From Chryseobacterium sp. 52 (lineage in GTDB: Bacteria; Bacteroidota; Bacteroidia; Flavobacteriales; Weeksellaceae), in NCBI RefSeq assembly GCF_002754245.1, contig NZ_PEEX01000001.1:1592001-1656000 (forward strand): 64,000 bases of DNA, written 5' to 3'. Made by a program: the position numbers and the translations under genes. The first letter of the stretch is position 1; each line of letters starts with the position of its first letter. The notes beneath the pieces were generated by a model. It was not told the origin of the DNA. It was given only the letters and a program-made list of their open reading frames with translations, and searched no databases. Positions 38,180 through 60,196 of the stretch are shown piece after piece.

Positions 38180-38202
38180 TTCTATGTACTGTAAACTACA
38201 AT

Positions 38203-38238
38203 AAAAAGGAGAAGCTGCACAGTTTTCTCCTTTTTAGA
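38203..38238 (+). terminator. terminator or attenuator after the CsgA-like gene
   Basis: AAAAAGGAGAA / TTCTCCTTTTT (38203-38213, 38225-38235) lies between the two curlin genes. A weak terminator here would give more transcript of the main subunit. Confidence 0.75.
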
Positions 38239-38259
38239 TTGAACAATAAATATACCCGG

Positions 38260-38279
38260 AAACCGTGATTTTATATTTG
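38260..38279 (+). promoter_or_regulatory. second promoter inside the curli-like locus
   Basis: AAACCGTGATTTT (38260-38272), identical to the csgA-upstream copy, runs directly into a TATATTTG -7 box (38272-38279), 61 bases before the ATG of the minor subunit gene. Confidence 0.55.
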
Positions 38280-38340
38280 TACCTGCTGGGTGTGTTTTTC
38301 CAGATACTCTATTCATGTACCTTTATTAAAAATTAATACC

Positions 38341-38739: not shown

Positions 38740-38746
38740 AACACAC

Positions 38747-39481: not shown

Positions 39482-39492
39482 AAACGTCCGCC

Positions 39493-39903
39493 ATGAAAAC
39501 TTTTATCATTATTTTGACCTTTATTGCGGGTATTTTCTCAGGAAAATCTCAGCAACTCGTTTATAAGCCCATCAATCCGGCATTCGGAGGTGATACTTTT
39601 AATTACCAGTGGCTTTTAAGTTCAGCAAATGCTCAGAATCAGTTTGACGAAAAAGATGATTACAGCAACTTGCTCGATAGCGTTAATTCTCTAGATAGCT
39701 TCAGTCAGAGCCTCAACAGGCAGATACTGAGTGAACTGTCCAGGAAATTGTTTGAAGATCAGTTCGGGGAGGGCAGTTTAAAGCCCGGAAATTATCTTTT
39801 CGGATCGCTTTATCTGCAGATCACTACTACAGCCCAGGGACTTTTGATCAATATTTTGGATACCAGTTCAGGCGATCAGTCCGAGATCGTGATTCCAAAA
39901 TAA
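39493..39903 (+). CDS. csgF: curli assembly protein CsgF
   Basis: A 136-residue secreted protein. Right after the signal peptide (ending SGKSQ) stands QQLVYKPINPAFGGDTFNYQ, the conserved N-terminal segment with NPxFGGxxxN that in E. coli CsgF lodges in the CsgG pore, followed by WLLSSANAQNQF. It should couple export to nucleation at the cell surface. The gene lies between csgE (11 bp) and csgG (25 bp). Confidence 0.93.
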   Translation: MKTFIIILTFIAGIFSGKSQQLVYKPINPAFGGDTFNYQWLLSSANAQNQFDEKDDYSNLLDSVNSLDSFSQSLNRQILSELSRKLFEDQFGEGSLKPGNYLFGSLYLQITTTAQGLLINILDTSSGDQSEIVIPK

Positions 39904-39928
39904 AAAATAACTAAAAACCAGACTTACC

Positions 39929-41293
39929 ATGAGAACTTACACTTACACCAGAATTTTTTTCTGTACGTTCCTGCTATGTTTAATGCAGGCCTGCAGTTCA
40001 ATGCTGGGTCTTCCTTCCGATCCTGAAAGATCCACCATGGGAGAACTCACCCCCTCTACTGCGGAATTGAAGAGCCTTCCTCTTCCCAATGAAAAAATCG
40101 TCATAGGCGTCTACAAATTCAGAGACCAGACCGGCCAGTATAAACCGTCAGAAAACGGAAATAACTGGAGTACGGCTGTTCCGCAGGGAACCACAACCAT
40201 TTTAATCAAAGCGCTTGAAGACAGCCGGTGGTTTATCCCTATCGAAAGAGAAAATATTGCCAATCTTTTAAACGAAAGACAGATCATCCGGTCCACAAGA
40301 CAGGAATACATGAAAGATGCCGATAAAACCAGCCAATCCCTTCCACCTCTTCTGTATGCAGGAATCCTTCTGGAAGGAGGCGTGATCTCTTATGACAGCA
40401 ATGTCATGACCGGAGGGCTCGGAGCCAGATACTTCGGGATCGGGGCTTCTACACAGTACCGTCAGGATAGGATTACCATTTATCTGCGGGCTGTTTCTAC
40501 CCTTAACGGCGAAATTCTTAAAACCGTGTACATCTCCAAAACGATCCTTTCCACCAGCGTAAACGGAAGCTTTTTCAGATATATTGATACAGAAAGATTG
40601 CTGGAAGCAGAGGTGGGACTTACTCAGAATGAGCCTGTGCAGCTTGCTGTAACTGAAGCAATAGAGAAAGCAGTAAGATCTTTAATTATCGAAGGGATCA
40701 GGGATAAAATATGGGGAAAATCCTCAGAAAATTTAACAGGATATCAGGCTCTGATCAGTGATTATAATAAAGAGCAGGAAGATAATGTAGGCAGAACAGT
40801 AGGCAATAAGTTTCCTGAGAACTACAGACAGAAAATTTCCTTTTTTGCGAATATAGAAGCTCAAAAGATTAAAGATGATTATGTAAATCCTAAAATGAAT
40901 GCCGGAGGAAAGCTGGGAATCAAATATTTTATAAATCCCAATTTCAATATTGAAGCCAGCGGCAGTTATTTCACTTTAGAGAATAAAAATATTATTAAAA
41001 GAAACTACATTGTTCCCGAGCTCAATCTCGAATTTCTTTTGTTCCCGAAATACAGATTCAGTCCATACGTATACGGTGGAATGGGAGCAATGTTCTCAAA
41101 ATATAAGCCTCAGTATAAAGGGCAGGTCGGTGGCGGGCTGGAATACATGATTGGAAATAACACTGCAATCCGGGCTTCATCACAATACGATATAGGTTTT
41201 AGAGACAACTGGGAAGGGTTGGTGAACGGAAAAAGAAAAGACCAGGCACTCCGCTTTGCCATTGGAATCAATTTTTACCTTGGAAACAAATAA
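39929..41293 (+). CDS. csgG: curli secretion channel CsgG with C-terminal barrel-like extension
   Basis: A 454-residue outer membrane lipoprotein (lipobox LMQAC, Cys22). Residues about 50-262 match CsgG closely, for example KIVIGVYKFRDQTGQYKP, STAVPQGTTTILIKALEDSR, WFIPIERENIANLLNERQII. The pore-constriction loop reads SENGNNWST against YPASNFST in E. coli, one residue longer. E. coli CsgG ends near residue 277; here about 180 more residues follow, with beta-strands such as GGKLGIKYFINPNFNIEASG and YGGMGAMFSKY and the final ALRFAIGINFYLGNK, like an eight-stranded OmpA/OmpW-type barrel. The nonamer would thus carry nine extra barrels or plugs. Confidence 0.93.
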   Translation: MRTYTYTRIFFCTFLLCLMQACSSMLGLPSDPERSTMGELTPSTAELKSLPLPNEKIVIGVYKFRDQTGQYKPSENGNNWSTAVPQGTTTILIKALEDSRWFIPIERENIANLLNERQIIRSTRQEYMKDADKTSQSLPPLLYAGILLEGGVISYDSNVMTGGLGARYFGIGASTQYRQDRITIYLRAVSTLNGEILKTVYISKTILSTSVNGSFFRYIDTERLLEAEVGLTQNEPVQLAVTEAIEKAVRSLIIEGIRDKIWGKSSENLTGYQALISDYNKEQEDNVGRTVGNKFPENYRQKISFFANIEAQKIKDDYVNPKMNAGGKLGIKYFINPNFNIEASGSYFTLENKNIIKRNYIVPELNLEFLLFPKYRFSPYVYGGMGAMFSKYKPQYKGQVGGGLEYMIGNNTAIRASSQYDIGFRDNWEGLVNGKRKDQALRFAIGINFYLGNK

Positions 41294-41304
41294 AAACATG
41301 AACT

Positions 41305-42816
41305 ATGAAAACTTTAATCAAAATACTCAGCATATTCATCCTTACTTTTTGTCTGTTTTCATGTGATGAAGAACTTGTAGAACAGGCTCAGACAGGAATA
41401 TTGAAAGGAAAGGTGGTGAAAAGAGGGACTAATGTGCCTATTTCTAATGTGAAGATTTTTACAGCACCTACGACACAGACGGTTTTCAGCGCTACAGACG
41501 GTACATTTGAAATTGCCGCCATGCCCATAGGAAATTATTCCGTGAAGGCCGAACTCTCAGGGTATATCACCAATTTTCAGGGTGTTAATATGCAAAATGA
41601 AAACCAGGTGGTCACCGTGGTTTTTGAAATGGACGATGATGAATCACTTAATTCCCCTCCTTCTGCACCGCAGCTGCTAAGTCCGGTAGACAATGCGGTG
41701 AACCAGCCATTAAACGTGGAGCTGACATGGACAGCAACTGATCCCGATACGGCTGATGTTTTAAAATATAGTTTAACAATTAAGAATAACCTCGATACTC
41801 AAGTTATTCAGGTTAATGATTTGACGGCGAAACATTATTCGCTTTCAAATCTGAAGTTTGGTGTTAGTTACTTCTGGCAGGTGTCTGTTTCGGACGGCAT
41901 TCACCCGCCAGTTTTAAGTTTAATCAGTAAGTTTACAACCAATACGGTTCCGGCAAACCGTTACCATTATGTACAGAAACAGAACGGTAATTTTGTGATC
42001 ATGTCGAGCGATGCACAGGGAAACAGTTTTCAGTTTACCAATGCATCCTACAACAGCTGGAGACCCCGAAAAAATAATAATGCCGGGCTCATCGCATTTC
42101 TGCGGACCGAAGGCGGAAGTACCCATATTTATACCGCAAATCCTGATGGATCTAATCCCTTTAAGGTAACCACGGTACCTGCAGCAGGTTTTAATAATTA
42201 TGAAATGGATTTTGCATGGAGCACAAACGGTCAGGAAATTCTCTATTCGAATTTCAATAAACTATACAGGATCAATAAAGACGGCAGCGGACTGACTCTG
42301 GTGTATACAACTCCGGATGGAAGCATGATCTCTGAATGCGACTGGAGCTATGATGGAAGCAGGATTGCTTTAAAAACAAATGATTACAGCGGATATACTA
42401 CAAAGATCTATATTATTGATATGACAGGAAGTATTTTGAAAACCATTCTGTCAGGCTCTCCGGGAGCTTCAGGCGGGCTTAATTTCTCTGTAGACGGACA
42501 AATGCTTGTCTTTACCAGAGATGTTTCAGGATATCAGGATGGAAGCGGTAATTATCGCCAGCTTGATTCCCATATTTTTATCTATAATATAACAAACGAT
42601 ACGGTATATGATATTTCTACGGAAAGCGAAAAACCACTGGGAACAAACGATCTTGATCCGAGATTTTCACCCAATAATGCACAGGTAATCTTTATGAATA
42701 CCTCCAATGATAATATATCGCAGAAAAATGTAATGGTCATTGATCTCAACAGTACCATGACCGATCTTTCGAGAGCTTCTCTTTTCAGTAACGGAGAGAT
42801 GCCGGATTATGAGTAG
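41305..42816 (+). CDS. lipoprotein with CarboxypepD_reg, FN3-like and TolB-like propeller domains
   Basis: A 503-residue lipoprotein (MKTLIKILSIFILTFCLFSC, Cys20). Residues 32-105 are a carboxypeptidase-regulatory beta-sandwich (LKGKVVKRGTNVPISNVKIF). Residues 120-213 resemble a fibronectin type III domain (LLSPVDNAVNQPLNVELTW). Residues 225-500 hold propeller repeats of the TolB/PD40 kind (HIYTANPDGSNPFKVT, LYRINKDGSGLTLVY, SYDGSRIALKTNDYSG, DPRFSPNNAQVIFM). It follows csgG by 11 bp and ends the operon, so it probably serves the fibre or its anchoring, although no such Csg protein is known from E. coli. Confidence 0.82.
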   Translation: MKTLIKILSIFILTFCLFSCDEELVEQAQTGILKGKVVKRGTNVPISNVKIFTAPTTQTVFSATDGTFEIAAMPIGNYSVKAELSGYITNFQGVNMQNENQVVTVVFEMDDDESLNSPPSAPQLLSPVDNAVNQPLNVELTWTATDPDTADVLKYSLTIKNNLDTQVIQVNDLTAKHYSLSNLKFGVSYFWQVSVSDGIHPPVLSLISKFTTNTVPANRYHYVQKQNGNFVIMSSDAQGNSFQFTNASYNSWRPRKNNNAGLIAFLRTEGGSTHIYTANPDGSNPFKVTTVPAAGFNNYEMDFAWSTNGQEILYSNFNKLYRINKDGSGLTLVYTTPDGSMISECDWSYDGSRIALKTNDYSGYTTKIYIIDMTGSILKTILSGSPGASGGLNFSVDGQMLVFTRDVSGYQDGSGNYRQLDSHIFIYNITNDTVYDISTESEKPLGTNDLDPRFSPNNAQVIFMNTSNDNISQKNVMVIDLNSTMTDLSRASLFSNGEMPDYE

Positions 42817-42839
42817 GGAAGAATAATAAATCAATGGTG

Positions 42840-42873
42840 AATGGTCAATTATCAATTTAGATAATTGACCATT
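42840..42873. terminator. hairpin after the curli-like operon
   Basis: AATGGTCAATTAT / ATAATTGACCATT is a perfect 13-bp stem 24 bases after the last stop codon of the operon. It lacks a good T-run, so it may be a processing or repeat element rather than a classic terminator. The remaining gap to 43040 has no gene. Confidence 0.6.
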
Positions 42874-43043
42874 GACTTATATGGGTGTTTCGAGTTACGG
42901 GGTAAAGGGGTGTATGAATTTTTCAGGGTTAGAAGATACTGGATGCGTATTGATTATGCTGACTTATTGTGAAAACATTTTGAGATCAAGCCTTTATCAT
43001 CTGAAAACTGATCATTTACTTGCGAGCAAAATTCACTATTGAC

Positions 43044-43101
43044 TTCGATTAACCTCAAAAAATCCAAACCGGAAGGTTTGGATTTTTTGAGGTTAATCGA
43101 A
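43044..43101 (-). terminator. strong 27-bp hairpin terminator
   Basis: A perfect 27-bp stem (43044-43070 with 43075-43101) with a GGAA loop and T-rich arm, placed 12 bases after the stop of the LuxR-type gene on the minus strand. It can also stop transcripts coming from the curli side. Confidence 0.85.
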
Positions 43102-43112
43102 ATTGGTTTTCA

Positions 43113-43763
43113 TCAGTCAATAATGTGGTTTTCTAAGGCGTATTTTACAATTCCTACGGAATTTTTTGCGTTTAATTTTAAAAGAATTCTTTTGCGGTGG
43201 GTTTCTACGGTATTGATACTTATAAAAAGTTTTTCAGAAATATCTTTGCTGCTGAAACCGTCGCATATCAGTTTAAGGATCTCCATTTCTCTGCGCGTAA
43301 GCGGCTCTTTGATGTGAGGGTTAGGTTTTCCTTCCTCACTGCTGATAAAGTTGATCATTCTTTCCTTTGCATTGTCGCAGATGTAGATCTCGTTCAAAAG
43401 CAGAGCATTGATAGACTTTAGGAATTCATCGTATCTGCTGTTTTTGTCAAGATAGCTTTTTATGCCTTTGTTAAAAAGCTTCCGGATGTCAATCATATCA
43501 TAACTACTGCCTATGACAATAATTTTGATTCCTTTGTTTTTGGCGGTAATGTCTTCTACAAGTCTGAAAATGTCTGTAAGCATCAGCATATTGGAGCTTA
43601 AAACCAGAATTTCAGGAGGGTCTTCTTTTAATTGTTCAAATAAGGGTTCATAAGAATTACAAATGTCAATCGTGTTAAAAATTTTGCTCTGGGAGAGCAA
43701 TTTTGATAAACCTTCTGTATAGAGTAGTGGTTCATCAAAAAAGGTTAATCTCGGTTTCATCAT
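43113..43763 (-). CDS. LuxR/NarL-type regulator with atypical receiver domain
   Basis: A 216-residue regulator. The N-terminal receiver-like domain starts PRLTFFDEPLLYTEGLSKLL, but the phospho-acceptor strand reads PEILVLSSNM, with Ser where Asp is needed; the Thr/Ser (IVIGSS) and Lys (SYLDKNS) positions are kept. The C-terminal HTH is LTRREMEILKLICDGFSSKD then LFISINTVETHRKRILLKLN. It is probably controlled without phosphorylation. It is convergent with the curli-like operon, and CsgD of E. coli is also a LuxR-type protein with an atypical receiver, so it is a candidate curli regulator. Confidence 0.85.
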   Translation of the reverse strand: MMKPRLTFFDEPLLYTEGLSKLLSQSKIFNTIDICNSYEPLFEQLKEDPPEILVLSSNMLMLTDIFRLVEDITAKNKGIKIIVIGSSYDMIDIRKLFNKGIKSYLDKNSRYDEFLKSINALLLNEIYICDNAKERMINFISSEEGKPNPHIKEPLTRREMEILKLICDGFSSKDISEKLFISINTVETHRKRILLKLNAKNSVGIVKYALENHIID

Positions 43764-48392: not shown

Positions 48393-49064
48393 CTACATGC
48401 TCGAATTGTAGTAGCCATTTTCCACGCAGAAACGGATAAGATGGAGTTTTGTCTTCAGTCCAAGTTTTTCAGTAAGCCTGTTGATATACGTGTCTATGGT
48501 GCGTGCGCTCAGGTTCAGTTTTTCCGCAATTTCCTTGTTGCTGTAGCCTTCATAGCAGAATTTCATCAACTGAATCTCAGTAGGATTGAGCTCTTCCTGA
48601 CCCTTCTTTTGCCTTTCCATATAGTTCTGTACAGCCAGTGGCTGTTGTTCCCATTCTTTAGAATATTTTTCATAATCGAAACCTTCAGAAGCAATGCTGC
48701 CTTTGATAATATCTTTTATAATCGTACTCTTTTTCTGACAGTAGTAGATGTTGGGGACTTTAGAAAGAATCTCTGCCATATCTTCCTGATACGTATTGGA
48801 ATAAGTGACAATAGGAGTTTCTGTATTGTTTTTTCTGATATATTTTATAGCCTCTATCCCGCTTAATACAGGCATAAACAGCTCTATAATAAACACATCT
48901 TCCTGCCTCCTGTAGATTCTGTTCACAAGCTCATGCCCGTTGTTGCAGTCATTCAGAAGCATATAGAAGGGGTTTTCCATAAGGGTTTTGACCATGATCT
49001 TCTTGAAGTAGAAGTCACTGTCTGCTATAGAAAATCGCACTGTATTAGATAATAATTTACTCAC
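48393..49064 (-). CDS. LuxR/NarL-type regulator with Glu in the phospho-acceptor place
   Basis: A 223-residue regulator. Its receiver domain begins VRFSIADSDFYFKKIMVKTL, and the strand that should carry the phosphorylated Asp reads DVFIIELFMPVLSGIEAIKY, with Glu in that spot; Glu can mimic a phosphorylated state. The HTH is LNPTEIQLMKFCYEGYSNKE and LNLSARTIDTYINRLTEKL. It is divergent from the type VI operon (180 bp gap), so it is a natural candidate regulator of it. The tandem GTAGnnnnnCTAC sites before the tssD genes could be its target; this is inference. Confidence 0.87.
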   Translation of the reverse strand: MSKLLSNTVRFSIADSDFYFKKIMVKTLMENPFYMLLNDCNNGHELVNRIYRRQEDVFIIELFMPVLSGIEAIKYIRKNNTETPIVTYSNTYQEDMAEILSKVPNIYYCQKKSTIIKDIIKGSIASEGFDYEKYSKEWEQQPLAVQNYMERQKKGQEELNPTEIQLMKFCYEGYSNKEIAEKLNLSARTIDTYINRLTEKLGLKTKLHLIRFCVENGYYNSSM

Positions 49065-49152
49065 TTTTAATATCGATTTGGTGTCTGATATTTAAAATTC
49101 AGAGGCCTAATTTATGAAAAACTTATGAAAGTGGAAATTAAACTTAGGTTAA

Positions 49153-49168
49153 TTAGGGTTTTCCCTAA
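49153..49168. promoter_or_regulatory. small inverted repeat upstream of tssO
   Basis: TTAGGG-TTTT-CCCTAA lies in the 180-base gap between the divergent LuxR-type gene and tssO, about 77 bases before the tssO start. It may be a regulator site; no clear -7 box is seen near it. Confidence 0.35.
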
Positions 49169-49244
49169 ATTGCACTGGGGAAAATACGTATTGTGCATAA
49201 ATTTTTTTTTTTATATTTTCACAGGCCAAACAAATTGCAAAAAT

Positions 49245-49778
49245 ATGTCTTCTAATAGAGAAAAAAAATTGAACAAATCCGATGTCAGAATAGGCATTTG
49301 GAAGTTTATTCTGTCTTTTGCCGTTCTGTCCGTGGTGTCTTTTCTATGTTTATTTCTCTTTTTTAAAAGCTACAGTATACAGAGAGAGGGAATAACCAGA
49401 CAAGCGGATGCCTATAAAGAGCTGATGCTTCGAAGCGATGTTCTTAAGGCTCAGATCGATAAGGTTTTTGATCAGATGAACCAGCTTAAGATTAATAAGG
49501 TGGAGAATGATATGTTCCTCAGAACCAGAATTATGGATGATGTAAGAGAGGTGCAGAATATTATGGGAAAAGACAGTATTGATAATTTCAAGCACTATGC
49601 TGTTTTGATGAAACAGATACGCCCTATGCTGACTTTGAAAAATGATATTATACAGGAAGAATACAATAAGAAGATTGTCGTAAGGGATCTTCAGGAATGT
49701 ATGGATAAAGTAGGAAAAGCTAACAATCAGCTTAAAAAAGATCCTACAAGAAACTTTACAGGAAGAAAAAGAAGATAA
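49245..49778 (+). CDS. tssO: type VI secretion protein TssO
   Basis: A 177-residue inner-membrane protein of the Bacteroidota type VI system. The start at ATG 49245 (MSSNREKKLNKSDVRIG) gives a short cytoplasmic basic head, one membrane helix (FILSFAVLSVVSFLCLFLFF near residues 22-41) and a coiled-coil periplasmic part (DAYKELMLRSDVLKAQIDKV) with a basic tail. TssO is found only in subtype iii systems, where TssN/O/P/Q/R replace TssJ/L/M. It leads the operon tssO, tssO-like, PKD gene, tssR. Confidence 0.82.
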   Translation: MSSNREKKLNKSDVRIGIWKFILSFAVLSVVSFLCLFLFFKSYSIQREGITRQADAYKELMLRSDVLKAQIDKVFDQMNQLKINKVENDMFLRTRIMDDVREVQNIMGKDSIDNFKHYAVLMKQIRPMLTLKNDIIQEEYNKKIVVRDLQECMDKVGKANNQLKKDPTRNFTGRKRR

Positions 49779-49793
49779 TTAAAAAGAAAACAT

Positions 49794-50318
49794 ATGCAGG
49801 GACATATTACACTATCTAAAAAAGAAAGACATTATCAGTTCCTTTATCTGATACTGATGCTTGTAGCCGCTATGATATTCCTGGGGATTATCTTTTTAAA
49901 AGGATTTGATTCTCCATTCTCAGACGAAGACGTTAGAGGATTACAGAATCTTGAACAAAAAGCAGCTTTTGAAAGCCAGCAAAAAATCCTACAGCCTGTA
50001 ATGGACAGTACCTATACCATGATCAGCAAGATTTCAGATAAATCTCCGGAGCCTTTTGTAGAGGATAATATCATTAACGGCGTTAATGGTCTGGCAAGTC
50101 ATTTTCATGGAAACGATGTGATGGATATCAGGAAGGATGGGTATTCTCAGATTTCCAAATTCTATAAAATGTATTTTGATGACAAAAAAGTTATTTCTAC
50201 GACTTCAGAAGATATAAAAAGATTTCAGAAAGAGGTGGAAGATTGCAGAATTGGTTTTAAAAGCAAGCAGGATCATCTCTATGAAAGAGAAAATGCATTA
50301 AGGGCAAGGACCCAGTAA
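49794..50318 (+). CDS. type VI secretion TssO-like membrane protein
   Basis: A 174-residue protein built like the preceding one: short head KKERHYQFLYL, one membrane helix (LILMLVAAMIFLGIIFLKGF near residues 19-38) and a helical periplasmic domain ending in EDCRIGFKSKQDHLYEREN. It is 15 bases after tssO and likely a paralog that forms part of the same membrane complex. Whether it is formally TssO or TssP cannot be settled here. Confidence 0.72.
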   Translation: MQGHITLSKKERHYQFLYLILMLVAAMIFLGIIFLKGFDSPFSDEDVRGLQNLEQKAAFESQQKILQPVMDSTYTMISKISDKSPEPFVEDNIINGVNGLASHFHGNDVMDIRKDGYSQISKFYKMYFDDKKVISTTSEDIKRFQKEVEDCRIGFKSKQDHLYERENALRARTQ

Positions 50319-50364
50319 TCAAAGAAATAAACAAAAGGAATAAAACACATCACAATTATTAACT

Positions 50365-51273
50365 ATGAATTATTTTCAAAAAAACAAAAAGAACATTATT
50401 ATTGGTGTTATCGCAACGCTGCTCATTGCGGCACTCGTTGCGTTATGGCTACAGAAAAAAGTGATCCATTCTGCCGATGATATTGTAGGAGTAGTCTATC
50501 CTTCCTCATTGTCTGTAGGAGATACCCTTTTATTTGAGGATAAAACCCAGTTTGCAAAAACCAAGAGATGGAATTTTGGAGATGGGAGAACCTCTGATAA
50601 AAACACAGGGATCCACTTTTATGATAAACCGGGATATTATTCGGTAAGTTTGATTATTGATAATAAGTATACCAAGACATTTCCTGTCATGGTTTCTGCA
50701 AGATATCAAAAGTCAAAAGATAGTACAAAGACCGCTGCGACCATAGAAGCTGTAACACAGGCTATGCAGAATGAAAATGTACAGTTCCGTGCTGTTTCAG
50801 ATGCAGGAAAATTTGCATGGAAGTTTGGCGAAACAGGAAATACAGATGCCAAAGAGAAAATGGCTATTTACTCGTATAAAAAACCGGGAGACTACCGTGT
50901 TACTTTATATACAGACGAAAGCGAGGAACCTGTTTATCACATGATCAAGATTCTTCCGGCCTACAATTCTTTACAGGAAGATGAAGTAGCAGTAGAAGAT
51001 TCTTATAAAAAAATCGATGACGATTTCAAATACCACTTGCAGCAGATTGCTAACGGAAACAGTTTTAATATGCATTATAACTACCTTCTGAGAACGTATC
51101 TGTGTAACAACGAAAATACAGTGGTAAAAGTGAGTGACAGCAAAGCGAATAACTTCTATATGTACTGTGCAGGACTTCAGTTTGACAAAAACATTGTCAT
51201 CCAGAGTGTAAAAGTAAACTTAGATGATACACAGAACTGTGTAACAAAAGTAGATATAAACCAAAGCAAATAA
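50365..51273 (+). CDS. PKD-domain type VI secretion protein, probably TssP
   Basis: A 302-residue protein with one N-terminal membrane helix (NIIIGVIATLLIAALVALWL near residues 10-29) and a periplasmic part. Residues about 55-110 are a PKD fold (KRWNFGDGRTSDKNTGIHFY, GYYSVSLII) and a second copy follows at 148-195 (KFAWKFGETGNTDAKEKMAI). The C-terminal 100 residues (DDDFKYHLQQIANGNSFNMH) are of unknown fold with three Cys. Between TssO-like and TssR genes, it fits TssP of subtype iii systems. Confidence 0.72.
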   Translation: MNYFQKNKKNIIIGVIATLLIAALVALWLQKKVIHSADDIVGVVYPSSLSVGDTLLFEDKTQFAKTKRWNFGDGRTSDKNTGIHFYDKPGYYSVSLIIDNKYTKTFPVMVSARYQKSKDSTKTAATIEAVTQAMQNENVQFRAVSDAGKFAWKFGETGNTDAKEKMAIYSYKKPGDYRVTLYTDESEEPVYHMIKILPAYNSLQEDEVAVEDSYKKIDDDFKYHLQQIANGNSFNMHYNYLLRTYLCNNENTVVKVSDSKANNFYMYCAGLQFDKNIVIQSVKVNLDDTQNCVTKVDINQSK

Positions 51274-51322
51274 TAATATCTGGCATACCCGGATGTACAC
51301 CAATCATAAAAGATAAAATAGG

Positions 51323-53722
51323 ATGAAAAATAAATTTCCTCTAGCAGCATATTATATAGGATTATCAGTATTATTAACGAGCTGTCAGGTAAAGCTGCCC
51401 TCTAAAAGAACTCCTGAGCCGTCGCAGTACGGGCAGTTAGACAACTCACCGGTAGTGAACGGATACCCTAAAAAATCGGTTCCGTGGATCGTTATTTCAG
51501 ATAGATCCAGAAATACGGCATATCTTGATAAAAGTGACGAAAAGTCTTACAAAGAAGTTAAGTTTCTGGAGCCTTTGATGGTTCTGAAACATAGAGACGG
51601 AATGGTGAAGATAGCGGAATATATTCCGGATGCTTTAATGAAAAAAGTTTCTTCCAAATCCATTAAAACCTATGGCTGGATACCGGAATCAGACCTTCTT
51701 CTATGGAATAATTCTTTAAAAAGCGAAAAGACAGGTTACCCTGTAAGAGTAGCTGTAGTTCCGAACAACAGCGAAGTGATCCGAAGTGCTGAAAGATACT
51801 ACAAGAATGATTCTATTATAGTGTTCAACTCACCAAGTCTTGTGGAAGAAGCCAATGTGAAAATTCCAAACGGACAGATGGTATACGTCTATAAACAGGC
51901 GGAAAACAATAAACGATTTTTGGTAGGTAAAAAACCTTCTATTGATATAGACAGCATCAGTACGAACCTTTACGGATGGGTAGATTCAAATGTAATCTCT
52001 GCATGGGGGGAACGTTCTGCTATAAAACTGAAAAATGACACAAAGGTTACTGAATCTGATTTAGGGATTCATGAAGGATATCCGGGTGCAGCAGATTCAG
52101 ATAGCAAAACAGCAATTCTTTTAATTGATACTCATAAGAGGACACCTCTGGAAAATATTTATCCGGTAACGTTAGCATTAAATGAAGCTCCAACACCAGA
52201 TTCCAAAACAAAATATTTTACCAATATTCTTGACTACAGCAAAAATTACGTATCCAATGTTCTTGGGGATAAAATTTTATTTGACCGTTATAGAGAGATT
52301 ACGGAAAGAGATAAAAATATAAACATTGTTTTTGCTTTGGATGTAAGTGCTCCCAATGCACCTTATGCTCCCATCGTAAAATCTCTTCTTCAAGATTTGC
52401 AGCTTAGATTTGAGAAACCTTCTTATTTTAACGGAGTAAAATACGGCGTTGTTTTGTATAAAAATAACCCGTGCGGGGAGAATGTTCTGGCTTCTAATTT
52501 AAGTACAGATTACAGCAAGATCACCGCATTTATTGACGATAGGACGAATGAAATGAACTGTGCGAGCAACAGTGGCTACCAACCGGTAGGTGAGGCGCTT
52601 ACGGCTGCAGGAAATCTTCTTTCAAATGTTCCGGATGAAACCAATATTGTGGTAACGATAGGTACTTCTGCCAACCAGAGCGGAAATATGTACAATGTGA
52701 TCAGTTCTCTTACACAGGCACAGGCCAGAGTAATCATGTTCCAAACCAGTGCAAGATCAGCTGATACATACAATGATTTTGTACTGATGGCTGAAAATGT
52801 GGTAACCAATACGGCAAAAAATATTGCTGAACTTAAGAAGGAGAAAATCGTCGACCAGAATGATGTTCTTACTAAAAATAATTTCAGTCTTGTGGAAGGT
52901 GATGCCGGATTTTTCTCGTTAGATTATCCAAAGCAGAGTATGTCTCAGGGATTTGTTATTTTCCCTAAAAAAGGTGATGTTACAATGCCTGGTTATCTGA
53001 AAAAGTCTGTAGACAGTCTTATTTCACAGGTTACTTTAGACAACCAAACCATCGATCGGGCGCTTAATAAATATTTCCATTCTACAGTAGGAGCAGGAAG
53101 AACAGATGTGGATCTGAAATACAAATATCTGTTCCCAGGTCTTACCAATCCTGTTTCTGCAGGAATTGCGGCACAGCTTATCAACTATGGAAATCCGTTC
53201 CTTGTAAAAGGATATATTCCGAAAGATTTGAAAGATGTCAAACCAAATATAGAAAAAGGAATTCTTATCTCTGAAACAGAATATGATAACCTGAAGAATT
53301 TCTATACTGAAGTTTATCTGAAGACCGATCCGGAAAAAGCAAGTTTTAGCCAGTCCAGAGCGATTAAAGAGTATATCAGACTCCTGAAAAAGTATAATCC
53401 TACCTTAAAATTCCTTGATAAGTCTGAACTGTATGAGAAACCAATGTCTTACGCAGTAGGATTGAGTACAGGTTTTGATAACTCCGAAGAGGAGTTGATG
53501 TCAAAATACAAACTGAAAGGATGGAAAAAACCTAAAATCGTTTTAAAGGAAAGAGTAAGAAAGTATTTCAAAGACTATAAAGTTTTGGCAGAGAGAATGC
53601 TGAACCACAGAAAAAATCCTGCGGTGAAGATTCAGCAGAACGGGCAGACTTTCTATTGGTTGAATGAATATTTCATGCCTACCACGCAGACTGTCGAAGA
53701 GCCGGAATACACAAAACATTAA
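51323..53722 (+). CDS. tssR: type VI secretion lipoprotein TssR
   Basis: A 799-residue lipoprotein (MKNKFPLAAYYIGLSVLLTSC, Cys21). The first 250 residues have SH3-like segments (YGWIPESDLLLW, LYGWVDSNVISAWGE). Residues about 330-500 form a von Willebrand A-like domain beginning NIVFALDVSAPNAPYAPIVK, with NIVVTIGTSANQSGN near 443; the MIDAS motif is incomplete (DVSAP). The C-terminal part ends with NGQTFYWLNEYFMP. TssR is specific to Bacteroidota systems and probably links the membrane complex to the outer membrane. It closes the first type VI operon before a terminator. Confidence 0.88.
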   Translation: MKNKFPLAAYYIGLSVLLTSCQVKLPSKRTPEPSQYGQLDNSPVVNGYPKKSVPWIVISDRSRNTAYLDKSDEKSYKEVKFLEPLMVLKHRDGMVKIAEYIPDALMKKVSSKSIKTYGWIPESDLLLWNNSLKSEKTGYPVRVAVVPNNSEVIRSAERYYKNDSIIVFNSPSLVEEANVKIPNGQMVYVYKQAENNKRFLVGKKPSIDIDSISTNLYGWVDSNVISAWGERSAIKLKNDTKVTESDLGIHEGYPGAADSDSKTAILLIDTHKRTPLENIYPVTLALNEAPTPDSKTKYFTNILDYSKNYVSNVLGDKILFDRYREITERDKNINIVFALDVSAPNAPYAPIVKSLLQDLQLRFEKPSYFNGVKYGVVLYKNNPCGENVLASNLSTDYSKITAFIDDRTNEMNCASNSGYQPVGEALTAAGNLLSNVPDETNIVVTIGTSANQSGNMYNVISSLTQAQARVIMFQTSARSADTYNDFVLMAENVVTNTAKNIAELKKEKIVDQNDVLTKNNFSLVEGDAGFFSLDYPKQSMSQGFVIFPKKGDVTMPGYLKKSVDSLISQVTLDNQTIDRALNKYFHSTVGAGRTDVDLKYKYLFPGLTNPVSAGIAAQLINYGNPFLVKGYIPKDLKDVKPNIEKGILISETEYDNLKNFYTEVYLKTDPEKASFSQSRAIKEYIRLLKKYNPTLKFLDKSELYEKPMSYAVGLSTGFDNSEEELMSKYKLKGWKKPKIVLKERVRKYFKDYKVLAERMLNHRKNPAVKIQQNGQTFYWLNEYFMPTTQTVEEPEYTKH

Positions 53723-54093: not shown

Positions 54094-54186
54094 TCGTAGA
54101 ATTACTACAAAAAGTCGTAGAACTACTACAAAATTTCAGATTTATATTCAAATACTTTTGAAATAGAAATAAGCGTTCTATATTTG
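54094..54186 (+). promoter_or_regulatory. tssD1 promoter with tandem 15-mer activator-like sites
   Basis: TCGTAGAATTACTAC (54094-54108) and TCGTAGAACTACTAC (54115-54129) are 21 bp apart. A TATATTTG -7 box is at 54179-54186, 64 bp from the second 15-mer start, and TTTG at 54157-54160 is the -33 candidate, 18 bp before it. Confidence 0.72.
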
Positions 54187-54237
54187 TTAAACAATCACCA
54201 CATCACAAAATATTAATAACAGTTAAAATTTACAATC

Positions 54238-54642
54238 ATGGCTGGAAACTCAAGAGGAATCTTAAAGTTCAATGGCGGAGAAGGGCAGAAACTGTTGAAA
54301 CTGAAATACAGTGTATCAAGATCTACAGATGTTTCAGGACGCGTAGCATCAGATCCTTCCAACGCATTGGTTAAAATTACAGTAGAAGCTACTGAGAAAT
54401 CGGACATTCTGGAAAGCTTACTGAACGGAAAATATAAGCCTACAACAGGAGAAGTTACTTTTAACAAATCTCATGAAGAAGGAACGCTTATCACTTTAAA
54501 CTGGGAAAACGGATATGTGATCCAGCATCAGGTAAGTTTCGATGCGATAGACGAAAACAGTATGCTGATCAGTTTTGTAATAAGCGCAGAAACAATTGAC
54601 TTTGGTACCTCCAAATACAACGGAGCATGGCCATCTAAATAA
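54238..54642 (+). CDS. tssD: type VI secretion tube protein TssD (Hcp), copy 1
   Basis: A 134-residue Hcp-like tube protein. The start MAGNSRGILKFNGGEGQKLL and the core VSRSTDVSGRVASDPSNALV are those of Bacteroidota TssD proteins. Hexamers stack to the inner tube pushed out by the sheath. It differs from the two later copies at more than 20 positions (for example TIDFGTSKYNGAW at the end), so it may have a separate role or effector. It has its own promoter and terminator. Confidence 0.92.
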   Translation: MAGNSRGILKFNGGEGQKLLKLKYSVSRSTDVSGRVASDPSNALVKITVEATEKSDILESLLNGKYKPTTGEVTFNKSHEEGTLITLNWENGYVIQHQVSFDAIDENSMLISFVISAETIDFGTSKYNGAWPSK

Positions 54643-54671
54643 GACACACTATTACACATCAACATTCATAG

Positions 54672-54704
54672 AAAAAGACTGTCCTTTAAAAGACAGTCTT
54701 TTTT
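54672..54704 (+). terminator. terminator after tssD1
   Basis: AAAAGACTGTC / GACAGTCTTTT with an 8-base loop and T-run. Confidence 0.88.
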
Positions 54705-54863
54705 GCCTGATGTGCAATACCTGCTTTGGGTAAGTGAAATGTGAATTTTATTCTGAAAAGCATCAGATTGATATTTTTTATCTTTAATACATCCAAACAT
54801 AAAAATAGTTGAAATTGATCAGGTCACATAAAATCACCACCAAAAAACTTATTACTTCTCTAA

Positions 54864-54919
54864 TCAAAGAATTACTATCTTTATGCCTACATACATTTTG
54901 CATAAAAAAGATATATTTG
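54864..54919 (+). promoter_or_regulatory. candidate tssH promoter
   Basis: TATATTTG at 54912-54919 is a -7 box 87 bases before tssH. TCAAAGAATTACTAT at 54864-54878 matches the tssD 15-mer at 12 of 15 bases but in a single copy and at a different distance (48 bp). The gap 54705-54863 shows nothing else. Confidence 0.45.
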
Positions 54920-55005
54920 TAAAAATGTATCTTTTGACAGATACCACCAAATAATCTGATAAAACTAAAAAGAACACAGACATATTAATATTAGAAAAAT
55001 TATAA

Positions 55006-57501
55006 ATGGGAGTACTAGTAACCAACGAAACAGTAAAACAGCTATTTCATATTGCTCAGTCGATAGCGAAAGAAAATTATAATGCAACATATGGCGGGCC
55101 ACATATTTTACAGGCCTTAATGCATAAAGATATCGGTCTTAATGAATTTTTGAAAAGTATTGATAAAGATCCGGGCTACTTTTATGAATGGGCAGATGTC
55201 CGCATTGAAGATTATCCAAAGACTGCCCATCTTCCCGATGAGGTAGGACAGGATGATGCTATAGACACTCTTGTAGAAGAAGCCGATGATATCCGCCTGA
55301 AATTGGGACTGGATGAAATTACACCCATCTGTATCCTTACAGCGATTGTAAAACCTCAGGTGGTTTTTTCCCTTCAGCAATTGAAATCACTTCCGCTGAG
55401 AGAACATGAAATTTTCAATTTATATAGAAAAGATACCCCTTTTGCAGTATCTGAAGACGGAGATTTTTCTTCACTTTTTTCAAACGGATCAGATTTTACA
55501 GACTCATCCTTTCCTTCCATCAAAAGTTACTGTGTAGACAGAACGGCACAGGCGAGAAAAGGCGATCTTGAAAACATTATAGGAAGAGATAAAGAGCTTA
55601 GAATGCTCGTTGAGATTCTTTGCCGAAGAAGCAAACCCAATGTCATTATTATTGGGGAACCCGGGGTAGGAAAAACAGCTTTGGTAGAAGGTTTTGCTAC
55701 AGAAATTACCAAAGGAAATGTTCCCGAAATGCTTAAAAATGCAACCCTTCTCGAACTGGACACAGGAGCACTATTGGCCGGAACTTCTTATAAAGGAGAA
55801 ATTGAAGACCGCCTGAAAAAAGTAATCAATGAATGTAAAAAAATTGAAAAAGCAGTGCTTTTCATTGATGAAATTCATACCCTTTTAGATCCGAAAGGAA
55901 GCATTGGAAACGTAGCCAATCTTCTCAAGCCGGAGTTGGCAAGAGGAGAAATTACCGTGATTGGCGCTACAACACAGGAAGAATACAGAAAGATTATTGA
56001 ACCGGAACAGGCTTTCAACCGTCGTTTTGAAGTTCTTACAGTGAATGAACCGGACGAACAGACCTGTGTGAAAATGATTGATGTCCTTCTTGATGGGTAC
56101 AAAAAACACCACGGTATAGAAGTTGAAAAAAACTCTATTCCCGAATGTGTCCGTCTGGCAAAAAGATATGCAAAAGGTAAAAAATTACCCGATGCAGCGA
56201 TTGACTTGTTAGACAGAACCATGGCCGCAATTAAAATGCTGGATGAACTTTCTGAAAAAGAACTTGCAAGCTGGAAAGAAACCTATGAAGGTATTTTAAA
56301 AGAAGAATTTACAGACAGCAAAGACCAGGCGAATGAGCTCATCTGGAACTATAATCTTCTGAGAGATAAAATAAGCCCGATTCTTTGGGGATCATTAAGC
56401 GAGCAGCCTGCGATTGACAACTCTATGCCAGTGGATCAGATCCATAAAATTATAGATGATACCTACGCAGAACTTGTACAGCATGCAGCCACAAAAAGAG
56501 AAAAAGTAGACCGTTTAGAGCTGGCAGCAGTGATGGCGGCAAAAACCAATATTCCTATCGGAAAAATCCAGGCTCAGGAAAAAGAAAAACTCCTGAATAT
56601 GGAATCCATGCTGTTGAACAGAGTAGTAGGTCAGGACCATGCTTTAAAAATTCTGTCCGATGCCATTGTTGAAAACCGAAGCGGATTGAATAAGCCGGGG
56701 CAACCTATCGGGTCATTCTTCCTTCTGGGACCTACCGGAACTGGGAAAACCGAGCTGGCAAAATCTATGGCAGAACTTCTTTTCAACGACGAGAAAGCCA
56801 TGGTACGTTTTGATATGTCCGAATTTAAAGAAGAGCATTCCGCAGCATTACTATACGGAGCGCCTCCGGGCTATGTAGGGTATGAAGAGGGAGGAATGTT
56901 GGTGAATAAGATCAGACAGCAACCGTATACCGTTGTTTTATTTGATGAAATTGAAAAAGCCCACCATTCTGTTTTTGATGTATTCCTGCAGATCATGGAC
57001 GAAGGTAAAGTCCATGACAAACTGGGGAAAGAAGGTGATTTCAGCAATGCCCTGATATTGTTTACTTCAAATATTGGAAGCGAAGAAATCGTAAAACAGT
57101 TTGAAGAAGGAAAAGTTCCGGAATCCTCCTCTTTGATGCAGATTATGTCGGGTTCAGGACGATTCAGACCGGAGTTTTTAGCGAGAATCACAGAGATTAT
57201 TCCTTTTGCACCTATCACGGAATCTATTGCCGAAAGAATTTTCAATATCCAGCTTAAATCACTTCATACATCACTTACAAGACTGGGAATGGCGTTGAAG
57301 ATCAGTGATGAAGCAGTTAAAAACCTTGCATTGGGAGGATTCAGCAGCAAATACGGAGCAAGACAGATTTCCGGAGTCATTCGTTCACAGCTGGCAAGAC
57401 CCATCTCTAAAATGATCGTAAGAGAGGAAGTGAAATCCGGACAGACACTCCATGTAGACTGGAACAGTGAAGAAGAAAAAATAAACTGGAAAGTAGATTA
57501 A
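55006..57501 (+). CDS. tssH: type VI secretion ATPase TssH (ClpV)
   Basis: An 831-residue Clp/HSP100 protein that takes apart the contracted sheath. The N-terminal Clp repeat domain spans residues 1-150 (YGGPHILQALMHKD). The first AAA+ module has Walker A GEPGVGKT at 217-224 and Walker B VLFIDEIHTLL; the second has GPTGTGKT at 575-582 and VVLFDEIEKAHH, with arginine finger region GSGRFRPEFLARI. A helical insertion lies between them. It is close in length to ClpB; the place among tssD and tssR genes gives the TssH call. The sheath genes are not in the window. Confidence 0.92.
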   Translation: MGVLVTNETVKQLFHIAQSIAKENYNATYGGPHILQALMHKDIGLNEFLKSIDKDPGYFYEWADVRIEDYPKTAHLPDEVGQDDAIDTLVEEADDIRLKLGLDEITPICILTAIVKPQVVFSLQQLKSLPLREHEIFNLYRKDTPFAVSEDGDFSSLFSNGSDFTDSSFPSIKSYCVDRTAQARKGDLENIIGRDKELRMLVEILCRRSKPNVIIIGEPGVGKTALVEGFATEITKGNVPEMLKNATLLELDTGALLAGTSYKGEIEDRLKKVINECKKIEKAVLFIDEIHTLLDPKGSIGNVANLLKPELARGEITVIGATTQEEYRKIIEPEQAFNRRFEVLTVNEPDEQTCVKMIDVLLDGYKKHHGIEVEKNSIPECVRLAKRYAKGKKLPDAAIDLLDRTMAAIKMLDELSEKELASWKETYEGILKEEFTDSKDQANELIWNYNLLRDKISPILWGSLSEQPAIDNSMPVDQIHKIIDDTYAELVQHAATKREKVDRLELAAVMAAKTNIPIGKIQAQEKEKLLNMESMLLNRVVGQDHALKILSDAIVENRSGLNKPGQPIGSFFLLGPTGTGKTELAKSMAELLFNDEKAMVRFDMSEFKEEHSAALLYGAPPGYVGYEEGGMLVNKIRQQPYTVVLFDEIEKAHHSVFDVFLQIMDEGKVHDKLGKEGDFSNALILFTSNIGSEEIVKQFEEGKVPESSSLMQIMSGSGRFRPEFLARITEIIPFAPITESIAERIFNIQLKSLHTSLTRLGMALKISDEAVKNLALGGFSSKYGARQISGVIRSQLARPISKMIVREEVKSGQTLHVDWNSEEEKINWKVD

Positions 57502-57512
57502 TAATAAAAGCG

Positions 57513-57547
57513 AAGGGCAGATCTGCAAAAACTCATCTGCCTTTTTG
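57513..57547 (+). terminator. hairpin after tssH
   Basis: GGCAGAT / ATCTGCC with flanking A and T (57516-57522, 57535-57541), just before the transglycosylase gene. It may lower, not stop, read-through. Confidence 0.6.
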
Positions 57548-57565
57548 CAATATAAATATTTAAAA

Positions 57566-58435
57566 ATGAAAACCGTATTCAAAAATATCTTTACAGGACT
57601 CATGCTGGCAGGGACTTTTGTAACGATGAACGGACAGTTTCTTGCTGCTTCTGATACCTCGGAAAGCAGTGTGAAAAAGTATACGAATATCATCAATGCC
57701 AATAAAGAGATCGTTGAATTTATCGAATATTCATTGGTACAGAAAGGCATCCCTAAGCACCTCAGAAATCTTGCTCTGATTGAGTCGCATTTTAACAGGA
57801 ATATTACCTCGGGAGCCGGTGCAGTGGGAATATGGCAGTTTATGACCGCCCATGCCAACCAATACGGGCTTACAGAGCAGAACCGTACAGATGTCTATAA
57901 AAGTACCAAAATAGCAGTAATTTCACTGGCGAATCTCTATAAAAAATATGGAGACTGGATTACTGTAGTGGCAGCTTATAACTGTGGCGAAGGAAATATT
58001 GCTAAAGCCATGCAGGCTGCGGGTTCTACCCAGTACCACGTATTTTCAAAATATCTGCCAGGAGAAACCATTAATCATGTTAAAAAATACCTCAATGCAT
58101 GTTATGCCACCGGCGAGCTTGAAAGTGTTTTAAATAACTATAATTCTTCAAGGATTAATAAAGTATTCTTTACAGAAGGAGGAAGCCGTAAAAACAGTGA
58201 TTCACCTTTGCAGGAGACAGAAATTAATGCAGGCTTTAATCTCGATGTTATTGCTGATGAGCTGGATGTAGAGGTGACTGAAATCCTTGCCTGGAACCCC
58301 GGAATTGTAGAAGAACTTCAGAAAAAGGGCGAAAGTCCTCTTTATCTTCCTACAGATCTGATGCCCGACTTTCTTCTAAGGAAAAATAAGATCCTTTCCC
58401 GTTCTATAAAAGAAGGAAGCCGTATGCAGCAGTAA
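57566..58435 (+). CDS. lytic transglycosylase with LysM domain, type VI-linked
   Basis: A 289-residue periplasmic enzyme. The start ATG 57566 opens the signal peptide (MKTVFKNIFTGLMLAGTFVT). The SLT domain has LALIESHFN with the catalytic Glu, GAVGIWQFMTAHANQYGL and VVAAYNCGEGNIAKAMQAAG at residues about 75-170. The C-terminal residues 205-255 are a LysM repeat (NLDVIADELDVEVTEILAWN). It cuts peptidoglycan glycan strands and probably opens room for the secretion apparatus; its place between tssH and tssD supports this. Confidence 0.9.
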   Translation: MKTVFKNIFTGLMLAGTFVTMNGQFLAASDTSESSVKKYTNIINANKEIVEFIEYSLVQKGIPKHLRNLALIESHFNRNITSGAGAVGIWQFMTAHANQYGLTEQNRTDVYKSTKIAVISLANLYKKYGDWITVVAAYNCGEGNIAKAMQAAGSTQYHVFSKYLPGETINHVKKYLNACYATGELESVLNNYNSSRINKVFFTEGGSRKNSDSPLQETEINAGFNLDVIADELDVEVTEILAWNPGIVEELQKKGESPLYLPTDLMPDFLLRKNKILSRSIKEGSRMQQ

Positions 58436-58462
58436 GCCCTGAATACGAAGAAAAAAACTTAG

Positions 58463-58490
58463 AGCCGTACATTTTGTAACGGCTTTTTTT
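58463..58490 (+). terminator. terminator after the transglycosylase gene
   Basis: AGCCGT / ACGGCT with T-run (58463-58468, 58479-58484). The rest of the gap to 58654 has no gene but holds TTAAGTGTAAAA, shared with tssD1. Confidence 0.75.
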
Positions 58491-58654
58491 ATGATCAATA
58501 TGAGTGAATTAAATGCTGAAAATACGCTGATTTGTCTTTGAAAAAAATCATAATATATCTCTTTTAAGTGTAAAAAAATAACGGTGTATAAGCCTTTTGC
58601 ATGTTTTTAATTAGCTTTAATTCAGTATTTTGTGTTTTTGATGTAAATCTATTG

Positions 58655-58747
58655 TCGTAGAATTACTACATCAAATCGTAGAATTACTACAAATTTTCAG
58701 ATTTATATTCAAAAGCTTTTTTATCAAAATACGGCGTTATATATTTG
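58655..58747 (+). promoter_or_regulatory. tssD2 promoter with tandem 15-mer activator-like sites
   Basis: TCGTAGAATTACTAC at 58655-58669 and again at 58676-58690, 21 bp apart, and TATATTTG at 58740-58747, 64 bp from the second start, exactly as at tssD1. Confidence 0.72.
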
Positions 58748-58800
58748 CTCTGTAATCAATCACTAAATCACAAAATATTAACAATTAAAATTTACAAATC

Positions 58801-59211
58801 ATGGCAGCAAATTCAAGAGGAATCTTAAAATTCAACAACGGAGGAGAGCAAAAATTATTAAAGCTTAACTACAGCGTATCAAGATCTACAGACGTTTCAG
58901 GACGTGTAGCATCAGATCCTTCTAATGCTCTTATCAAAGTGACAGTAGAAGCTACTGAAAAATCTGACATCCTTGAAAGCTTATTGAACGGAAAATATAA
59001 GCCTACAACAGGAGAAGTAACTTTCAACAAATCTCACGAAGAAGGTACATTAACTACCTTGAAATGGGAGAACGGATATGTAATTCAACACGAAGTAGAC
59101 TTCGATGCTGTAGATGAAAACAGTATGCTGATCAGTTTCGTAATAAGCGCAGAGGTGATCACTCTTGGTAACTCTGAGTACCGCGGAATGTGGCCTTTAG
59201 ACGGTAAATAA
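58801..59211 (+). CDS. tssD: type VI secretion tube protein TssD (Hcp), copy 2
   Basis: A 136-residue Hcp-like protein. It shares the conserved core with copy 1 and is almost identical to copy 3; apart from two changes (DAVDEN against DAIDSN) only the C-terminal four residues LDGK differ. Such pairs may be a recent duplication, perhaps to raise dose or to mix subunits. It has its own promoter and a very strong terminator. Confidence 0.92.
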   Translation: MAANSRGILKFNNGGEQKLLKLNYSVSRSTDVSGRVASDPSNALIKVTVEATEKSDILESLLNGKYKPTTGEVTFNKSHEEGTLTTLKWENGYVIQHEVDFDAVDENSMLISFVISAEVITLGNSEYRGMWPLDGK

Positions 59212-59244
59212 TCTGAACAATCATCTTAGTAAAAATAAATTGGT

Positions 59245-59287
59245 ACAGAATAGTATATTCGCAAGAATATACTATTCTGTTTTTTTG
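59245..59287 (+). terminator. strong terminator after tssD2
   Basis: Perfect 16-bp stem ACAGAATAGTATATTC / GAATATACTATTCTGT with a GCAA tetraloop and seven T. The following 59288-59644 has no recognisable gene. Confidence 0.92.
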
Positions 59288-59644
59288 TGGTTTCTGCCGG
59301 AGGAAACGCAAATAATAATCCTTTCGAAGTTCTTATATTGCTTTATTCTTCGTACCCTTAATATCTGGATATTTTTCTGAAAATGTAATAATAAATCGGA
59401 CTGAAAATGCTGATACTTCCAGCATCAGTGTAACAGCAGAATTTTAAAAATTAAGTAGAAGAAAAGCACATTTTTACATCTTGTTTACTGTGTGGTCTCT
59501 TTTTCTTATTTAAACTTAGAAGGATGGTTTTTATAAATACAATTTATGTCCCATAACGGTGTGAAATAATGGCTTTCAATGATCTTAAAAATAACAGTAA
59601 ACCTTTTATAGATAGTAGCTTAAAGCATTATGTTAAATCAAAAG

Positions 59645-59737
59645 TCGTAGAATTACTACATCAAATCGTAGTATTACTACAATATTTCAGATTTGTATCT
59701 AAAAACTTTTTCCTTACCCCTATCGGGTCTATCTTTG
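59645..59737 (+). promoter_or_regulatory. tssD3 promoter with tandem 15-mer activator-like sites
   Basis: TCGTAGAATTACTAC at 59645-59659 and TCGTAGTATTACTAC at 59666-59680, 21 bp apart, and TATCTTTG at 59730-59737, 64 bp from the second start, exactly as at tssD1 and tssD2. The rest of the region differs. Confidence 0.72.
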
Positions 59738-59791: not shown

Positions 59792-60196
59792 ATGGCAGCA
59801 AATTCAAGAGGAATCTTAAAATTCAACAACGGAGGAGAGCAAAAATTATTAAAGCTTAATTATAGCGTATCAAGATCTACAGACGTTTCAGGACGTGTAG
59901 CATCAGATCCTTCTAACGCTCTTATCAAAGTTACAGTAGAAGCTACTGAGAAATCAGATATCTTAGAAAGTTTATTGAACGGAAAATATAAGCCTACAAC
60001 AGGAGAAGTTACTTTCAATAAATCTCACGAAGAAGGTACATTAACTACCTTGAAATGGGAGAACGGATATGTAATCCAGCACGAAGTAGACTTCGATGCA
60101 ATTGACAGCAACAGTATGTTGATCAGCTTCGTAATAAGCGCAGAGGTGATCACTCTTGGTAACTCTGAGTACCGTGGAATGTGGCCGGGAGCTTAA
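59792..60196 (+). CDS. tssD: type VI secretion tube protein TssD (Hcp), copy 3
   Basis: A 134-residue Hcp-like protein, nearly the same as copy 2 in protein and DNA up to residue 131 and then ending GA. The core VSRSTDVSGRVASDPSNALI and HEEGTLTTLKWENGYVIQHE are unchanged. It stands last in the type VI block. It has its own promoter and terminator, so all three tube genes are single-gene units. Confidence 0.92.
   Translation: MAANSRGILKFNNGGEQKLLKLNYSVSRSTDVSGRVASDPSNALIKVTVEATEKSDILESLLNGKYKPTTGEVTFNKSHEEGTLTTLKWENGYVIQHEVDFDAIDSNSMLISFVISAEVITLGNSEYRGMWPGA

Follow-up and report, generated by a model that had tools for sequence, protein, structure and literature searches.

A putative operator with fixed spacing to the promoter precedes tube, spike and linked type VI secretion genes in Chryseobacterium and has a LuxR-type candidate regulator

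Introduction

In two known systems, a regulator encoded within a type VI secretion system (T6SS) cluster acts on tube and spike genes together. The RpoN/Sfa2 system of the Pseudomonas aeruginosa H2-T6SS is described as joining the machine genes and scattered vgrG islands through a cluster-encoded regulator, using sigma-54 and an enhancer-binding protein (PMC8855297), and Vibrio cholerae VasH, a sigma-54 activator, is a cluster-encoded activator of hcp and vgrG (PMC3482179). The T6SSiii of Bacteroidota is described in Chryseobacterium as divided among as many as four, sometimes five, loci, with tssD and tssI co-localising; the term "LuxR" is absent from the main text of that paper (PMC10781749). 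A literature search of titles and the starts of abstracts, with most subscription papers and all preprints outside its range, returned no description of the operator or regulator treated here or of a coordination of the scattered loci.

We analysed a 64,000-nucleotide stretch of the Chryseobacterium sp. 52 genome (the window), whose T6SS genes belong to T6SSiii (PMC10781749), an assignment that rests on TssD, TssO and TssR, recognised by PF17642, PF17561 and TssR models. A sequence-only reading of this DNA had proposed that one dedicated regulator, possibly a LuxR-type protein encoded nearby, drives all tube genes from paired sites.

Results

The window carries three tssD genes on the forward strand, tssD1 (54238..54642), which encodes the Hcp tube protein, tssD2 (58801..59211) and tssD3 (59792..60196), all matching PF17642. 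Among them lies a gene for an AAA/ClpB-type ATPase (55006..57501, forward strand), called tssH from its domains and place, and the T6SS membrane-complex genes at 49125..53722 (forward strand) encode two TssO-family proteins, a PKD-domain protein and TssR. The claim that each tssD is preceded by two 15-mers with starts 21 bp apart held to the base: the distal and proximal copies lie, on the forward strand, at 54094..54108 (TCGTAGAATTACTAC) and 54115..54129 for tssD1, at 58655..58669 and 58676..58690 for tssD2, and at 59645..59659 and 59666..59680 for tssD3, the last being the perfect dyad GTAGTATTACTAC. Four of these six 15-mers are exactly TCGTAGAATTACTAC and two have one mismatch. Equally exact was the distance of 64 bp from the start of the proximal 15-mer to a TAnnTTTG box, the Bacteroidota sigma-A promoter -7 element, in all three promoters (forward-strand boxes TATATTTG at 54179..54186, TATATTTG at 58740..58747 and TATCTTTG at 59730..59737). 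Unlike the sigma-54-dependent RpoN/Sfa2 system (PMC8855297), the three promoters contain no -24/-12 element of the form GG-N10-GC. The further statement that other upstream sequence differs stood for the region upstream of the pair, where 56 to 77 of 199 positions (28 to 39%) are identical between copies, but failed for the 49 bp between site and box, where 29 to 36 of 49 are.

At up to three mismatches the 15-mer matched the window 10 times against 1.36 expected from shuffles, and none of 100 shuffles reached 10. No 15-mer stands in front of the membrane-complex genes at 49125..53722. A match at 54864 before tssH (three mismatches) was set aside, being 48 bp from a TATATTTG and having no similar 15-mer 21 bp away, as was the palindrome CCGTAGAATTTCTACGG at 6902-6916, which resembles the operator core, lies between genes with T-rich sequence after it and looks like a terminator hairpin. 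A search of the whole 5.3-Mb genome for the pair GTAGN5CTAC-N8-GTAGN5CTAC, allowing up to three mismatches, found the three window places alone to match without mismatch, the next best having two.

In front of all six tssD genes of the genome stands a 15-mer, with 123 to 126 bp from its start to the start codon. Three have pairs, one has a single perfect copy (4339116), and two have single copies with one or two changes, both of them preceded by a second palindrome, CCTAACnnnTGTTAG. This palindrome has three exact matches in the genome, two of them at tssD, and possibly serves a second factor; it abuts the single 15-mer directly at G000:C1:4040727 and 5167506. A pattern that joins the 15-mer to TAnnTTTG across 49 bp, at up to two mismatches, occurs at eight places in the genome, namely five tssD and three standalone vgrG promoters; at the sixth tssD the distance, counted from sequence, is 63 bp. 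At up to three mismatches there were nine matches, the ninth being the distal site of tssD3, against six for a reversed-pattern control that covers this threshold as a whole, with no split at two. One genome match, at 1341919, was set aside since it lies inside a long open frame on the opposite strand. By their coordinates, the six vgrG genes comprise the three standalone ones and three just after site-bearing tssD genes; the standalone genes have one site each, with the boxes TAAATTTC, TAACTTAG and TATATTTC all exactly at 64 bp.

Across the genus, the site (at least 11 of 13 core positions) was present in 112 of 112 distinct tssD upstreams of this type. These comprise the window and loci L012-L061 and L222-L301, with TssD sharing at least 60% identity with that of the window; genes with lower identity, a match starting after residue 5, no nearby ATG or less than 260 bp to the locus end were left out. 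The distance from site to TAnnTTTG is 64 bp in 107, 63 bp in two, and 62, 38 and 15 bp once each, and all 112 have a box no more than 110 bp beyond the proximal site (at 63-64 bp in 109). The pair is the commonest arrangement on the 21-bp grid without being universal (89 pairs, 4 triples, 19 singles), and 11 of the 19 single-site upstreams (11 of the 112) have the palindrome CCTAACnnnTGTTAG (or CGTTAG) before the single 15-mer. In an alignment of the 93 promoters with at least two sites, information was high over both 15-mers, the box and a T-run about 20 bp before it, at the place expected for the -33 element; some bases just 3' of the proximal site are conserved too, and most positions upstream of the pair are without high information.

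When 80 Chryseobacterium loci kept from 130 (1.56 Mb) were searched at 13 or more of 15 positions, the motif gave 137 matches and its reversed form 11. As many as 117 of the 137 lie no more than 400 bp upstream of tssD and 20 lie elsewhere, and the spacing is 21 bp in all 61 site pairs separated by less than 120 bp. At this threshold no 15-mer precedes the LuxR-type gene or tssO in the 80 loci. Six of the 20 other sites were inspected and 14 were judged from position alone. In L222, L226, L236 and L288 the 15-mers and box are kept in the position of tssD1, but the stretch up to the next gene holds no intact open frame of 70 residues or more; the L287 site is the opposite strand of the palindromic site preceding tssD1, and the L256 site falls within coding sequence. 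A second, distant TssD type (identity about 20 to 37%; L062-L080), found in some Chryseobacterium (L070, L071, L072, L074) and in other genera, has no 15-mer before it, the best scores being 8 to 10 of 15.

The exact pattern TCGTAGNANTACKAC occurred 232 times in 36 Chryseobacterium genomes against 23 times for the reversed pattern, and once against four times across 23 genomes from the order's other families. Among the matches listed, at least 149 exact Chryseobacterium sites in 24 genomes were recovered, 117 of them directly upstream of tssD, and at least 75 of the 98 tssD genes listed for these genomes have an exact site among them. The other 32 listed sites, one of which is a vgrG site of the Chryseobacterium sp. 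52 genome, divide into 26 with a TAnnTT box at 64 bp (one via its proximal partner) and six without (L345, L350, L357, L362, L363, L368), counted as non-members. Twelve of the boxed sites precede vgrG; five precede tssH with no tssD match in between; three precede Imm51-type genes (Pfam-tested in L351 alone, the rest recognised by eye); one (L343) precedes the gene that follows Imm51 in L351; one (L364) occupies the tssD1 position, an Imm51-like gene lying farther along; two precede a 348-residue open reading frame that matches no Pfam family and, in the one tested (L344), has DUF4280 behind it; and two are at contig ends. Outside the genus, a single exact site in G047 (L370) is without a box and was discarded. 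In four loci the first intact gene behind the promoter is tssH, so the gene set is not strictly one of consumable parts.

Some of these vgrG promoters have full TATCTTTG boxes (L346, L349, L369). In L344, L352, L353 and L356, TATATTGC occupies the box position of some vgrG and DUF4280-type promoters, and others have TATATTGG; the Flavobacterium psychrophilum motif SM5, TAnnTTGY, is similar to the TATATTGC boxes (PMC9723704). A 164-residue protein recurs behind a 15-mer promoter in L343 (633-1127; no Pfam match for this copy) and L351 (951-1445), once behind Imm51 and once without it.

Judged by the genes that follow it, the 15-mer looks like an operator for T6SS projectile genes, that is, tube, spike and linked modules. 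The proposal of one dedicated regulator driving all tube genes fits in part, since 6 of 6 tssD genes of this genome and 112 of 112 distinct upstreams of this tssD type in the genus carry the site, but the presence of this architecture before vgrG and other modules makes it too narrow; it also does not extend to the distant TssD type, which is without the site. The operator is shared by tssD and vgrG, and one regulator may act on both, as VasH and Sfa2 do on hcp and scattered vgrG.

The site also precedes tssD in the genera g42, g45, g46, g40, g28, g26, g49 and g24, in two distance classes. The box lies at about 63 to 67 bp in g42, g46 and two g45 genomes, and at 37 bp in g28, g26, g49, g24 and another g45 genome (read as 40 where the script took an overlapping register). 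Five g40 tssD upstreams have the site and no TAnnTTTG, with TAATTTAG at 63 bp in those re-inspected. Before vgrG, the g45 loci L179, L181, L196 and L198 have TAAATTTG at 37 or 38 bp instead of 64, L192 has a box at 65 bp, and no convincing site was seen in L177, L178, L184 and L200. In G223 and G182 tssD sites lie 63 bp from the box and vgrG sites 37-38 bp, so that both geometries occur within one genome. No close site was found before tssD of G185 (L103, L118) and one G182 gene (L082); sites about 326 bp before tssD in G185 (L190) and 191 bp before it in G182 (L207) have a box at 64 or 63 bp. When at most 20 kb of sequence surrounding the LuxR-type gene or tssD was searched in 16 genomes, most relaxed sites precede tssD, in counts that include doubles from overlapping or opposite-strand readings, and in G084 one site precedes a DUF4280 gene with its box at 63 bp. 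Because 112 of 112 genus upstreams carry the site, 107 of them at 64 bp, and it is retained in other genera at a distance of about 64 or 37 bp, its conservation is more than chance or recent duplication.

The gene at 48393..49064 (reverse strand) encodes a candidate regulator with a receiver domain (PF00072, 36.2 bits) and a LuxR-type GerE helix-turn-helix (PF00196, 53.9 bits), both above cut-off. We chose 42 genomes, 22 with this tssD type and 20 without; an ortholog scoring above 300 bits is present in 21, exactly the 21 that have tssR. In each of the nine genera having tssR, loci were found in which the LuxR-type gene stands beside T6SS genes. At 13 of 13 loci examined outside the genus it lies ahead of the tssO-tssR genes and in their orientation (from 16 such genomes with an ortholog; the first tssO went undetected in two of the 13), and it is divergent from them in the window and in two compared Chryseobacterium loci. 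This co-occurrence with tssR and the adjacency at the locus give the proposed candidate strong circumstantial support. No sensor kinase was found among the open reading frames scanned in L208 and L219, and the 10 scanned in L219, five of them without Pfam match, included no other recognisable regulator; L208 has an AraC-type gene about 2 kb from the LuxR-type gene. A database search with the protein returned 348 relatives at E 1e-25, the names shown for the 120 listed being generic ones for regulators, and among 25 of 63 NCBIfam matches listed it reached no cut-off. Elsewhere in the window, curli genes (curlin repeats, CsgE, CsgG) occupy 37361-43763, with a second LuxR-type gene (43113-43763) beside them.

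The protein has the domain order of NarL/FixJ-type regulators (EvgA, NarL, VraR), and its best PDB sequence match is EvgA. Unlike these regulators, its family does not keep a conserved phospho-acceptor Asp: the position, which aligns with an Asp of EvgA, is E in five of the 21 orthologs (all Chryseobacterium), N in 13, S in two and D in one (G223). Because the residue is mostly E, N or S, ordinary Asp phosphorylation is suggested not to be the switch of this protein. One genome, G148, carries a tssD with the 15-mer and three vgrG genes but has no LuxR ortholog, tssR or close tssH, its best TssH-like matches being about 40% identical compared with 76 to 77% in its congeners G177 and G184. The site there outlives the candidate, though the G148 T6SS looks decayed or orphan. 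In G186, which has no TssD, a partial 76-bit LuxR match contains internal stop codons.

Discussion

From the sites, their spacing and conservation, the genes behind them and the co-occurrence observed here, we infer that the LuxR-type protein encoded at 48393-49064 is most likely the factor that binds the shared T6SS projectile operator and activates from it. A dyad the size of the 15-mer suits a LuxR-type dimer. One dimer would sit on each dyad, so that paired sites would hold two dimers on the same face of the DNA, and these would contact RNA polymerase at a sigma-A promoter. The arrangement would differ from that of VasH in pairing a receiver and LuxR-type helix-turn-helix protein with sigma-A type boxes (PMC3482179). 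With the box at -12 to -5, where the -7 boxes of F. psychrophilum lie (PMC9723704), the dyad centres would fall near -68 (second copy -89) in the 64-bp class and near -41 in the 37-bp class. The former geometry, just upstream of the core promoter, would fit class-I-like activation and the latter class-II-like activation; judged from position alone, the factor would be an activator.

The chief competing account, which we regard as improbable but worth serious attention, is that operator and regulon are real and that the binder is another factor encoded elsewhere, with the LuxR-type gene serving a different promoter. Any T6SS core gene co-occurs with the T6SS, as tssR does and probably every other, so co-occurrence does not single out the LuxR-type gene; that gene and its neighbours carry no 15-mer, and the tssD of G148 keeps its site without the LuxR-type gene. 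Weighing on the other side are the position of the gene beside T6SS genes in all nine genera with tssR, the failure to recognise a further regulator among 10 scanned open reading frames of L219 (five without Pfam match), and the fit of dyad size to a LuxR-type dimer. A repressor, or a factor that represses or activates depending on conditions, with tandem phasing for cooperative repression, is a minor prospect. The position of the sites taken by itself is compatible with repression, but in 107 of 112 cases the proximal 15-mer stands upstream of the core promoter, with 49 bp between its end and the -7 box.

Much less probable is that the similarity was merely inherited, either because tssD was duplicated together with its promoter or because a promoter cassette spread, regulatory constraint playing no part. 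The window offers some ground for it in the close paralogues tssD2 and tssD3 (98% over 132 residues), in the identities between site and box of its three copies, and in the vgrG promoter at 3899039, which by eye shares some site-to-box flanks; against this, the flanks upstream of the three pairs are dissimilar, information in the 93 promoters is high in the 15-mers and box and not at most positions upstream of the pair, although some bases just 3' of the proximal site are conserved as well, and other genera keep the site at a different box distance. We give slightly less credence still to palindromes acting through RNA or DNA structure or recombination and not as protein operators. The 15-mers are palindromic, and the palindrome at 6902, which resembles them, has the look of a terminator hairpin with T after it; yet the 15-mers are phased at 21 bp, and in each of the three promoters they precede the box and hence stand outside the predicted transcript.

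Taking the LuxR-type protein as the preferred factor, a larger and more tentative step, which may well not hold, is that in Chryseobacterium and related genera a pseudo-receiver LuxR-type protein not switched by ordinary Asp phosphorylation controls the consumed parts (tube, spike, DUF4280 tip and linked effector and immunity modules) apart from the reusable sheath, baseplate and membrane complex, the number of phased operators and box quality helping to set the tube-to-spike ratio. Additional sites and better boxes may raise transcript levels, which would suit the many tube subunits needed per spike. Such a strength code fits the vgrG promoters of the Chryseobacterium sp. 52 genome, but the full TATCTTTG boxes of vgrG promoters in other genomes, together with the three single-site tssD genes of this one, argue against a simple form of it.

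Beyond T6SSiii as described, a common operator would connect its split loci, and the scattered Chryseobacterium T6SS loci (PMC10781749) gain a testable regulon and a candidate regulator. The operator motif also finds vgrG, DUF4280 and immunity modules through their promoters. Together, these results suggest that one T6SS-encoded regulator would probably replenish the used-up tube and spike parts together, and that cells may control the ammunition apart from the gun.
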